A stretch of DNA of 64,000 nucleotides from Hymenobacter gelipurpurascens. Lineage in GTDB: Bacteria > Bacteroidota > Bacteroidia > Cytophagales > Hymenobacteraceae. The stretch lies in the NCBI RefSeq assembly GCF_900187375.1, contig NZ_FYEW01000001.1, positions 1,612,001-1,676,000 on the forward strand. The letters run 5' to 3'. The notes under the pieces are model-generated. The model saw only the letters and a program-made list of their open reading frames with translations, had not been told where the DNA came from and searched no databases. How positions within the stretch are numbered: the first letter of the stretch is position 1; each line of letters begins with the position of its first letter. Of the stretch, positions 6,364 through 45,314 are shown in pieces. Position numbers and translations under genes: made by a program.

Positions 6364-6396
6364 ACGGGCCAACCTGCATGTAGCAAGTTGGCCCGT
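6364..6396 (-). terminator. Terminator of phhA
   Basis: Perfect 10-bp arms 6364-6373 and 6387-6396 (acgggccaac / gttggcccgt). On the minus strand the stem is followed by TTTATTTT, so it best serves phhA; it could also stop convergent transcription of the Mpo1-like gene. Confidence 0.75.
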
Positions 6397-6421: not shown

Positions 6422-7168
6422 TTATTCTACAGGCTTCAGCTGCCAGTTGGAGGCCAGCAAGGCGGCTAGTTCGGCCACGCTTTCTGTGAGCTGGTCCCAG
6501 CTGTTGAGCAGGAAGTATTGGTCCTGCAGGTGCGCTTCGCTGTAAGGCGTCTGGAGCACGGTGGCCAGATCGAAGGGGAAGCGGCGGGTTACGTCGCCGA
6601 TGCAATGGTGAATTTCGCCGGAAGAGGACAGCAGACCAGCGCCGTACATGCGGGTTTCGCCGCGCTCCTGCACCAAGCCAAACTGCACCGTGAAGCCATA
6701 TAGCCGCTCCAGACGCGTAAGGGCCACGTCATCGTCCAAGTGCTGAGCGGCTACGTAGCCTAGGAAATGCAGGAAATCAGCAAAGGCCTTGTCCATCAGC
6801 AAGGGCACGTGCCCAAATACGCCGTGAAACAGGTCGGGCTCCTCGATGAAGTCGAACTGGGCCATGGATCGGATCCAGACAGTAGCCGGAAACTTGCGCT
6901 GGGCCAGCAACCCAAAGAAATCGGCATCATTGAGCATGCCTTCTACGGGCTCCAGCTGCCAGCCAGTGGCTTTATACAGGCGCTGGCTTACCTCTGCAAA
7001 GTTCGGAATAGCATTGCGGTGGAAGCCCACCGCGGCCAGACCTTGGGCAAAAGCCGAGCAGGCCCGCTTATGTAGAAGGGCGGTCTGGCGGTCGAACAAT
7101 ACTTTCCAAACCAACTGGTCCTGCGCCATGTATCGGTCGTAGTGTTGCTGAAGCATAGTTGTAGACAT
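6422..7168 (-). CDS. phhA: Phenylalanine 4-monooxygenase
   Basis: A 248-aa aromatic amino-acid hydroxylase of bacterial length (catalytic domain only). The pterin-dependent iron site is seen as EPDLFHGVFGHVPLL, which carries the two iron-binding histidines; the glutamate ligand lies further on in the HFLGYVAA...TRLERLYGFTVQFGLV region. Other family blocks are WVRSMAQFDF-like IRSMAQFDFIEEPD and YGAGLLSSSGEIHH. It turns phenylalanine into tyrosine using tetrahydrobiopterin and O2. The ATG at 7168 directly abuts the T run of a terminator-like hairpin (7173-7205), so expression is probably set by the leader described separately. The trp/DAHP operon lies about 3 kb upstream on the same strand. Confidence 0.95.
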   Translation of the reverse strand: MSTTMLQQHYDRYMAQDQLVWKVLFDRQTALLHKRACSAFAQGLAAVGFHRNAIPNFAEVSQRLYKATGWQLEPVEGMLNDADFFGLLAQRKFPATVWIRSMAQFDFIEEPDLFHGVFGHVPLLMDKAFADFLHFLGYVAAQHLDDDVALTRLERLYGFTVQFGLVQERGETRMYGAGLLSSSGEIHHCIGDVTRRFPFDLATVLQTPYSEAHLQDQYFLLNSWDQLTESVAELAALLASNWQLKPVE

Positions 7169-7172
7169 AAAA

Positions 7173-7205
7173 AAAGGCCCGATTTCCTTTCGGAGTCGGG
7201 CCTTT
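7173..7205 (-). terminator. Intrinsic terminator in the phhA leader
   Basis: Perfect arms 7196-7205 and 7173-7182 with a 13-nt loop, followed on the minus strand by a run of T that ends in the phhA start codon. There is no upstream gene on this strand within 390 nt that it could serve, so it is read as a conditional leader terminator. Confidence 0.75.
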
Positions 7206-7238
7206 ACTGGTTTTCAGAGGTGAAGTAGCATGTTGCTC

Positions 7239-7328
7239 TTAGCTTCCGTACCGGCAATGCAGCCCGACTTCGTCCTGCATAGGACGAATATTGGTTAGGC
7301 AGACTTGCTTTGCGGAATAGTTGAACAT
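7239..7328 (-). CDS. Possible 29-residue leader peptide of phhA
   Basis: An ATG at 7328 opens a 29-codon ORF ending in TAA at 7239. The peptide starts MFNYSAKQVCLTNIRPMQ and ends HCRYGS, with Phe at 2 and Tyr at 4 and 27. The ATG lies 7 nt after a good -7 promoter element (7336-7343), so the transcript would be nearly leaderless. The ORF covers the first hairpin and the antiterminator strand, so its translation could control folding. No run of Phe or Tyr codons is present, so classical starvation attenuation is not obvious. It may be chance. Confidence 0.35.
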   Translation of the reverse strand: MFNYSAKQVCLTNIRPMQDEVGLHCRYGS

Positions 7329-7335
7329 GATGATA

Positions 7336-7343
7336 CAAATATA
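7336..7343 (-). promoter_or_regulatory. Promoter -7 element of the phhA leader
   Basis: Minus-strand TATATTTG matches the Bacteroidota -7 consensus TANNTTTG. No good -33 TTG is found at the usual 19-21 nt spacing; a TTTG lies 25 nt upstream. The predicted start is near 7330. Confidence 0.55.
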
Positions 7344-18070: not shown

Positions 18071-18118
18071 ATCGGGGCGAAGTACTGGTTGTGGTGTTTT
18101 CCGCGCCGGGCAATAAAA

Positions 18119-18144
18119 AAAGCCCGGCGTTGCGGCCGGGCTTT
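18119..18144 (-). terminator. trp attenuator terminator
   Basis: Perfect 10-bp arms 18135-18144 and 18119-18128 (gccgggcttt / aaagcccggc on plus) with a 6-nt loop, followed on the minus strand by seven T. It lies between trpL and trpE. The competing antiterminator may use 18200-18206 (GGACGGG on minus) pairing with 18134-18140 (CCCGGCC on minus), six of seven bases matching. Confidence 0.8.
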
Positions 18145-18179
18145 CTGTAGTCGAATGCGAAGAGAGTTTCACGTAGGCT

Positions 18180-18257
18180 CTAATGCACGCACAGGCTGTC
18201 CCGTCCGGAATTTCCGAGGGGCCACCACCAAGCTTGCAGAGTCATGTGAGAAGTCAT
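18180..18257 (-). CDS. trpL: trp operon leader peptide with three consecutive Trp codons
   Basis: A 25-codon ORF (ATG at 18257, TAG at 18182-18180) encoding MTSHMTLQAWWWPLGNSG then RDSLCVH. The WWW run at residues 10-12 is the signature of a ribosome-stalling leader peptide. A hairpin (around CGGAAATTCCG, 18203-18213) follows the Trp codons and the terminator 18119-18144 lies before trpE. In the classical mechanism, low charged tRNA-Trp stalls the ribosome at WWW and favours the antiterminator, so transcription continues. A second in-frame ATG lies at 18245. It lies 22-28 nt after the predicted transcription start. Confidence 0.88.
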   Translation of the reverse strand: MTSHMTLQAWWWPLGNSGRDSLCVH

Positions 18258-18284
18258 TGCCGATTTTTTGGGCGTTGAATGCTG

Positions 18285-18314
18285 CAAATGTACAGCGGGC
18301 TTTTTACGGCGCAA
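18285..18314 (-). promoter_or_regulatory. trp operon promoter
   Basis: Minus-strand -33 TTG (18314-18312), a 19-nt spacer, then -7 TACATTTG (18292-18285). This matches the Bacteroidota sigma-ABfr consensus in both boxes and spacing. The start of transcription is predicted near 18279, about 22 nt before trpL. Confidence 0.75.
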
Positions 18315-44906: not shown

Positions 44907-45305
44907 GTGATGGGTCGCCCCACCGCGGCGCTTTCGGGCGACGAGGAAAGTCCGGGCAACACAGAGCACCCTGCTTCCTAACGGGAAGGATTTGGAAGCG
45001 TAAAGCAACCCAAGACAGCCAGTGCCACAGAAAACTACCGCCTACGTCGCCTCCGGGTGGCCGGTAAGGGTGAAAAGGTGCGGTAAGAGCGCACCAGCGG
45101 CTGGGCAACCATGTCGGCTGGGTAAACCTCAGGGGTTGAAAGACCAAATAAGCTGGCACGTCGGCCTTTCGGGGCCGGCACCGGGTGGCTCGTCCGGCGC
45201 CAGCGGGTAGGTTGATGGAGCCTTTCCGCGAGGACTGGCCTAGATAAATGGTGGGGCCGCTTTTGCTTGCAGAGGCGGACAAAACCCGGCTTACAGACTC
45301 ATCAC
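44907..45305 (+). ncRNA. rnpB: RNase P RNA (bacterial type A)
   Basis: About 399 nt. Universally conserved pieces are seen in order: GAGGAAAGTCCGGGC (about 44941), ACAGAAAACTACCG (about 45027), GGTAAGGGTGAAAAGGTGCG (about 45063), a P-type element AAACCTCAGGGGTTGAAAG, ATAAATGG and ACAAAACCCGGCTTACAG near the 3' end. P1 is formed by 44907-44916 with 45296-45305 (one G-U). It cleaves the 5' leader of tRNA precursors with the RnpA protein. A predicted protein ORF beginning at 45267 overlaps its 3' end and cannot be the real start of the next gene. Terminator at 45315-45350. Confidence 0.97.
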
Positions 45306-45314
45306 CGCCATCAG

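Follow-up and report, generated by a model that had tools for sequence, protein, structure and literature searches.

In the ribosome-mediated trp, his and pheA attenuators of Enterobacteria, a leader peptide is coupled to RNA segments that enter into mutually exclusive pairings. Leader peptides that arrest the ribosome are a second type, and the known arrest peptides carry conserved C-terminal residues. The speF and mgtC leaders contain two ORFs each, and tandem attenuators have reportedly been described for mgtC. For Flavobacterium psychrophilum, one study gives strong indications that amino-acid operons are preceded by attenuators with leader peptides (PMC9723704), and the part of a comparative survey that was accessible gives putative attenuators for tyrA operons, Bacteroides thetaiotaomicron included, and none for phhA (PMC1173090). 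In Proteobacteria, phhA is under TyrR/PhhR, according to the accessible portion of PMC5343134. No described phhA leader was found in the open-licence PMC literature, and no mention of phhA was matched in PMC2965389.

The window analyzed here is a 64,000-nucleotide stretch of Hymenobacter gelipurpurascens (contig NZ_FYEW01000001.1, positions 1,612,001 to 1,676,000). The phhA leader found in it is probably a ribosome-mediated transcription attenuator, judging from its sequence and that of its relatives, and it would represent a clade that lacks a run of Tyr codons and has a second mini-ORF. It resembles the trp, his and pheA attenuators in having a leader peptide, three mutually exclusive pairings and an intrinsic terminator, but differs from them in the missing control-codon run, in the second mini-ORF and in its target, which is a Phe-consuming enzyme. 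With the TnaC and SpeFL arrest leaders it shares a leader peptide upstream of a catabolic gene, but the end of its peptide is not conserved. The parts of the leader, in which nucleotide n corresponds to window position 7329-n, are as follows, with the evidence in brackets.

7336-7343, minus strand: promoter -7 element TATATTTG, Bacteroidota sigma-A type (sequence and conservation)
7239-7328, minus strand: ORF1, 29 codons, MFNYSAKQVCLTNIRPMQDEVGLHCRYGS, with its ATG at 7328 (ORF list, conserved frame)
7307-7315, minus strand: 5′ arm of helix P0, leader nt 14-22, codons 5-8, region 1 (swap test)
7269-7288, minus strand: hairpin P1, inside ORF1 (swap test, compensatory changes)
7261-7269, minus strand: 5′ arm of the antiterminator, AGUCGGGCU, region 2 (duplex energies, swap test)
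7251-7260, minus strand: 3′ arm of P0, leader nt 69-78 (pairs with 7307-7315)
7214-7231, minus strand: ORF2, ATG CTA CTT CAC CTC TGA (MLLHL*), between the ORF1 stop and the terminator
7173-7205, minus strand: intrinsic terminator (fold and terminator prediction)
about 7194-7202, minus strand: 5′ arm of the terminator, region 3, common to the antiterminator
7169-7175, minus strand: T run of the terminator (sequence)
6422-7156, minus strand: phhA, phenylalanine hydroxylase homologue, likely start ATG 7156 (MLQQHYDRY)

A preliminary description of this DNA had reported the box, the 29-codon ORF, the hairpin, the complementary segment, the terminator and the T run, and all of them are present on the minus strand at the positions listed above; helix P0 (7307-7315 with 7251-7260) and ORF2 were absent from it. 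The complementary segment is AGTCGGGC (7262-7269), which matches exactly GCCCGACT (7194-7201) in the 5′ arm of the terminator. The minimum free energy of the 170-nt leader is -54 kcal/mol, compared with a mean of -37.5 kcal/mol for shuffled sequences (z -4.0), and none of the 200 shuffles folded as low. Both P1 and the antiterminator arm lie within P0, which crosses the antiterminator; the antiterminator in turn shares the 5′ arm of the terminator. Because P0 crosses the antiterminator, it occupies the place of the protector (1:2) helix in an attenuator of the 1:2 / 2:3 / 3:4 form. The structures had been described as mutually exclusive, which applies to the antiterminator and the terminator, but not to P1 as one of the alternatives, since P1 only adjoins the antiterminator arm, with 1 nt in common, and the competitor is P0. 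P1 could possibly act as an RNA polymerase pause hairpin.

The genome of the window has one phhA match, and a terminator-like site (6364-6396, minus strand) lies just past the end of the gene, so that phhA is probably a single-gene unit. The same-strand genes upstream are, from a reading of their ORFs, what we take to be the trp operon and a chorismate mutase/DAHP synthase gene. A leader resembling a Trp attenuator, TACATTTG, is located before trpE (18117-18292, minus strand); its leader ORF MTSHMTLQAWWWPLGNSGRDSLCVH, with an ATG at 18257, reads MTSHMTLQAWWWPLGN..., and it is followed by a terminator at about 18117-18146 and a T run.

The sigma-A box TAnnTTTG of F. psychrophilum is placed at -12 to -5 in the accessible part of PMC9723704. 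With that placement transcription would start at about 7331, leaving a 5′ UTR of about 3 nt and a near-leaderless ORF1. In B. thetaiotaomicron 5′ UTRs of less than 10 nt are rare, about 3.7%, and leader-like sORFs are present (available sections of PMC7366714). The T run (7169-7175) abuts an ATG at 7168, and the terminator had been thought to end in the phhA start codon. This is unlikely, since a relative (L005) with a 93-94% identical phhA has ATC in place of this ATG, and an in-frame ATG is found 12-26 nt after the T run in 68 of 69 leaders; an ATG directly follows the T run in only 30 of the 69, in 27 of them in the phhA frame. On this comparison phhA most likely starts at 7156, 12 nt beyond 7168.

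The preliminary description had proposed that a covariance model be built from the phhA upstream regions of relatives and that the conservation of the mini-ORF be examined in them. A model (R1) built from 35 leaders matched 102 of 120 Hymenobacter genomes, and 102 of its 103 matches were followed on the same strand by a phhA match at a distance of 24-114 nt. The remaining one, G004:C87:148350-148480, is a weak second match (E 0.005) about 2.5 kb upstream of the element that precedes phhA. phhA itself is present in 119 of the 120 genomes; among the 18 without an R1 match, the only phhA match is weak in 17 (best E 1e-27 to 1e-38, with 35-41% identity where listed) and one (G094) has none. Five regions of other Hymenobacter (L161-L165), upstream of aromatic hydroxylases of about 35-41% identity, have an ORF-bearing leader of their own with a different peptide, which contains RPKPGxGI in L162-L165. 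When 194 genomes of the order were searched with R1, the 8 matches were all in Hymenobacter, under stricter filters that lose weak matches; this search missed the related leaders of genus g5.

The upstream regions of 97 loci, among which many records duplicate others and two (L001 and L002) come from the genome of the window, gave 96 leaders by script, 69 of them distinct; L087 was dropped for its interrupted terminator tail. In all 69, a TAnnTTTG-like box is followed after 4-8 nt by the ATG of an ORF1 of 24-32 codons, which implies a 5′ UTR of 0-4 nt if the box placement holds throughout; the box is exactly TATATTTG in 60 of them and differs from it by one or two bases in the other 9. The dN/dS ratio of ORF1 was 0.68 in frame, against 0.97 and 1.02 out of frame (33 disjoint pairs), which points to a weak, yet frame-specific, constraint on the amino acids. 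No control codon is universal: Tyr, Phe, Cys and Leu each fail across the 69 leaders, and a Tyr run is absent from ORF1 in every one of them.

The pairings were then compared by an alignment-free swap test, in which native partners are set against random re-pairing among 27 cluster representatives (2000 permutations, floor p 0.0005). Covariation of the antiterminator and terminator helices in relatives was another check named in the preliminary description. In the swap test, P0 (native mean -10.3 vs -8.0 kcal/mol), P1 (-5.0 vs -4.1 kcal/mol) and the antiterminator (-19.7 vs -18.1 kcal/mol) beat re-pairing, each with p 0.0005; three negative controls gave p 0.60-0.77. Two other candidates were rejected, a helix P2 around the ORF1 stop (p 0.25) and a pairing of the antiterminator arm with the stretch that precedes P1 (p 0.21). 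In this test the antiterminator arm was misplaced clearly in L096 and probably in L095, and both were excluded from the ribosome-position folding described below. The duplex between ORF1 and the 5′ arm of the terminator ranged from -11.8 to -27.1 kcal/mol in the 69 leaders, with the weakest group in L094-L097, and in seven of them (L051, L052, L054-L056, L069 and L071) the best duplex was further 3′ than the usual arm. Compensatory changes on both sides were observed at three of the five alignment pairs of P1, and at one terminator pair 39 of 53 sequences have A-U and 13 have G-C. RNAalifold on 53 leaders recovered only P1 and the terminator, and not P0, which we put down to alignment shifts. 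A column-pair covariation scan with APC was not used, because many of its top pairs were not base-pairing, as expected from relatedness. In addition, a conserved CUCUGAAA is found immediately before the 5′ arm of the terminator.

ORF2 is present in 58 of the 69 distinct leaders, in 52 with ATG and in 6 with GTG or TTG (one of these six, in L050, is probably spurious), and it is missing or unclosed in 11. An ATG occurs in the linker of 56 leaders, and in 52 of these it is closed in frame before the terminator, mostly by CTC TGA, with the stop 8-14 nt ahead of the terminator core. ATG-started ORF2s were found in 20 of the 27 representatives, compared with 2.9 expected in shuffled linkers (maximum 8); these numbers overstate independence, because the rows are related. 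Leu accounts for 157 of the 242 internal residues, encoded by CTC (72), CTT (50) and CTA (35) and never by CTG, whose share of Leu codons in 17 genes of the window is 51%; the avoidance of G may equally serve an unpaired linker. Thirteen other leaders of the clade were chosen for the ORF2 script and one (L138) was left out because its terminator was misplaced; ORF2 was found in 10 of the remaining 12, often overlapping the ORF1 stop as ATGA. The script's ORF2 in L142, one of these 10, is spurious, and by reading this leader has MMRPPQLTYPT* instead. As an N-terminal part of phhA, ORF2 was rejected, as it falls in frames 0, 1 and 2 in 23, 17 and 16 of the 56 leaders. In five leaders (L079, L080, L082, L120 and L140, but not L081) ORF2 has no stop before the terminator and continues past it, in the phhA frame, into the gene.

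A further 57 upstream regions of the family (L109-L165) were sorted by reading into 25 of the window's type (A), 29 with a Tyr run (B) and 3 of neither type. B leaders are exemplified by MHLFSQSYYYYYPTCQP and MNLMNNAYYYYYYHQS, and the 15 that were read have 3-6 Tyr codons within about codons 7-15 of ORF1. A fixed criterion, applied after the reading (an ORF of 14-50 codons with at least 3 Tyr within 7 codons), was passed by 27 of the 29 B regions (L150 and L157 being missed), by all 20 tandem second phhA copies in Hymenobacter loci (one of which is the same copy as L126), by none of the 25 further A regions and by none of the 3 others. Among the 69 window-type regions it fired in 6, on ORFs other than ORF1, and its background was 25 of 2000 random window stretches. 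Outside Hymenobacter, 12 of 27 class-wide phhA homologues passed; these are the best-scoring 27 of 53 matching genomes, with L183 and L188 nearly identical, and several of the misses look, by reading, like genes inside operons. As judged from these counts, the runs appear to mark Tyr-codon attenuators before other phhA copies. In a midpoint-rooted tree of 84 proteins, which includes only some of the B regions, one group (100/100) holds all 31 A rows together with two g5 rows that are A-type on reading, and the other side holds all 28 B rows, 13 class-wide rows that bear Tyr and 10 others; the wide spread of the Tyr run leads us to infer that it is the ancestral condition.

The two kinds of phhA leader have in common the gene family, the mini-ORF, a nested P0/P1-like fold, an antiterminator-like pairing and a terminator before the gene. 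The nested shape was seen in 8 B leaders and in the trp leader, as single MFE predictions without controls. In contrast, the B leaders have a Tyr run and no real ORF2 (a search in 15 of the 29 returned only two bare Met-stop matches), whereas the window leader has an ORF2 and no Tyr run. With the same layout in a separate clade, the window leader thus looks like a Tyr-codon attenuator without its tyrosine sensor. The original proposal, that a leader ORF and exclusive helices decide whether phhA is transcribed, draws support from the conservation, from the swap tests and from these Tyr-run relatives. The leader has, as an attenuator would, a conserved short ORF, exclusive protector, antiterminator and terminator helices and an intrinsic terminator upstream of the gene; the run of codons for the regulating amino acid was found in none of the 69 ORF1s and in none of the 25 further A leaders. 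The leader would hence be a variant and not a member of the classical attenuators.

In the mechanism that we propose, transcription would begin 0-4 nt ahead of ORF1. If no ribosome is present, P0 and P1 would form first, so that the antiterminator arm is held and transcription ends at the terminator. A ribosome that is kept within the first dozen codons of ORF1 would leave P0 open, the antiterminator would form and phhA would be read. Once a ribosome finishes ORF1 and re-initiates on ORF2, P0 would refold behind it and the antiterminator loop would be occupied, leading to termination. In the folding model, before the 5′ arm of the terminator emerges, P0 (at least 4 expected pairs) is predicted in 24 and P1 in 23 of 25 representatives. 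When this arm is out and no ribosome is present, the antiterminator (at least 4 pairs) is predicted to be favoured at equilibrium in 22 of 25; as it beats P0 there, the ribosome-free OFF state would have to be kinetic. With a ribosome at codon 9 the antiterminator is predicted in 25 of 25, and with a ribosome at the ORF1 stop in 21 of 25. At the ORF2 stop the antiterminator is predicted in 11 of 19 and P0 (at least 4 pairs) in 8 of 19, and in the window the expected antiterminator pairs fall from 8.6 to 0.4 as P0 rises to 5.3. The predicted folding fits a switch that is ON with the ribosome held on ORF1 and OFF once it has moved to ORF2, with P0 forming first. Tyr-tRNA charging sensed through a codon run is not supported as the signal in this clade. 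Our guess is that the leader of this clade would respond to how ORF1 and ORF2 are translated as such, through initiation or through slow decoding of the Leu codons other than CUG in ORF2, and not to a run of one amino acid in ORF1. A narrower version, to which we assign a low probability, places the decision in ORF2, a pentapeptide frame that consists mostly of such Leu codons: their slow decoding, under a shortage of leucine or of amino acids in general, would keep a ribosome in the antiterminator loop, let P0 refold and turn the hydroxylase off.

An alternative that we regard as unlikely is a TnaC- or SpeFL-like arrest, in which free phenylalanine or another ligand would stall the ribosome near the end of ORF1 and the stalled ribosome would cover the 3′ arm of P0, so that the antiterminator forms and the substrate induces the hydroxylase. 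In 56 of the 69 leaders, 21-22 nt separate the end of the antiterminator arm from the end of the stop codon, and with this spacing a ribosome on the stop codon would lie roughly over the 3′ arm of P0; however, 14 of 16 leaders of the Tyr-run and trp kinds show a comparable spacing (14-23 nt), with weaker duplexes. The C-terminal residues of ORF1 also vary across the clade (CRYGS, CGYER, GRCNR, GRKGR, RKNKA), unlike those of arrest peptides. On the metabolic side, a 4-hydroxyphenylpyruvate dioxygenase match over the cut-off was found in 39 of 41 Hymenobacter genomes and a prephenate dehydrogenase match (PF02153, tyrA type) in 38 of 41, the window's genome included in both, so that phhA need not supply tyrosine and a catabolic role is possible. 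The three genomes without PF02153 (G022, G003 and G087) have two phhA matches each, and a Tyr-run leader precedes the second copy in G022 and in G003; in these three genomes phhA may be the tyrosine source.

A sensor that reads the scattered Phe and Tyr codons of ORF1 (Phe2, Tyr4 and Tyr27 in the window, for example) is quite improbable. At alignment column 10, which sits where other leaders have the Tyr run, Phe occurs more often than any other residue (43 of 69), but several leaders have neither Phe nor Tyr in that zone, five (L090, L092, L093, L094 and L097) have neither anywhere in ORF1, and no Tyr run is present in the 69 ORF1s or in the 25 further A-clade leaders. A riboswitch or protein-binding leader with incidental ORFs would agree with the strong RNA conservation and with the conserved motif before the terminator 5′ arm, but we consider it very improbable, because the start and length of ORF1 are kept in all 69 leaders, the linker ATGs are closed in frame as described, and related leaders have Tyr runs. 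The riboswitch option raised earlier was also not borne out by Rfam, in which the leader has no match at the gathering score; 10 local hits all fell below it. The one Rfam family found in the window is the bacterial class A RNase P RNA (44907-45309, plus strand). That the leader is a decayed Tyr attenuator, whose leftover parts give constant partial read-through and no signal, would explain the absence of its relatives' sensor codons but is the most improbable of all, since matching changes have preserved P0, P1 and the antiterminator, and ORF2 is kept over a clade that spans two genera.

Returning to the ribosome-mediated attenuator, these comparisons suggest that a Tyr-codon attenuator often precedes phhA in Bacteroidia (the 12 of 27 homologues outside the genus), which would mean that the enzyme is treated there as a tyrosine-making step. 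They also suggest that one duplicated branch has kept the RNA layout, with the tyrosine codons absent and a second ORF carried. Among the 102 Hymenobacter genomes listed, 40 have two phhA copies, and where the second has a Tyr-run leader, as in the 20 tandem pairs read, a single cell would allow a test of whether the signal changed after duplication. If slow decoding of the ORF2 Leu codons does take the decision, the window-type copy would be shut off, while the sister copy with the Tyr-run leader would be turned on by tyrosine shortage; gene duplication would then have been followed by the conversion of a single-amino-acid sensor into a brake that acts on starvation.
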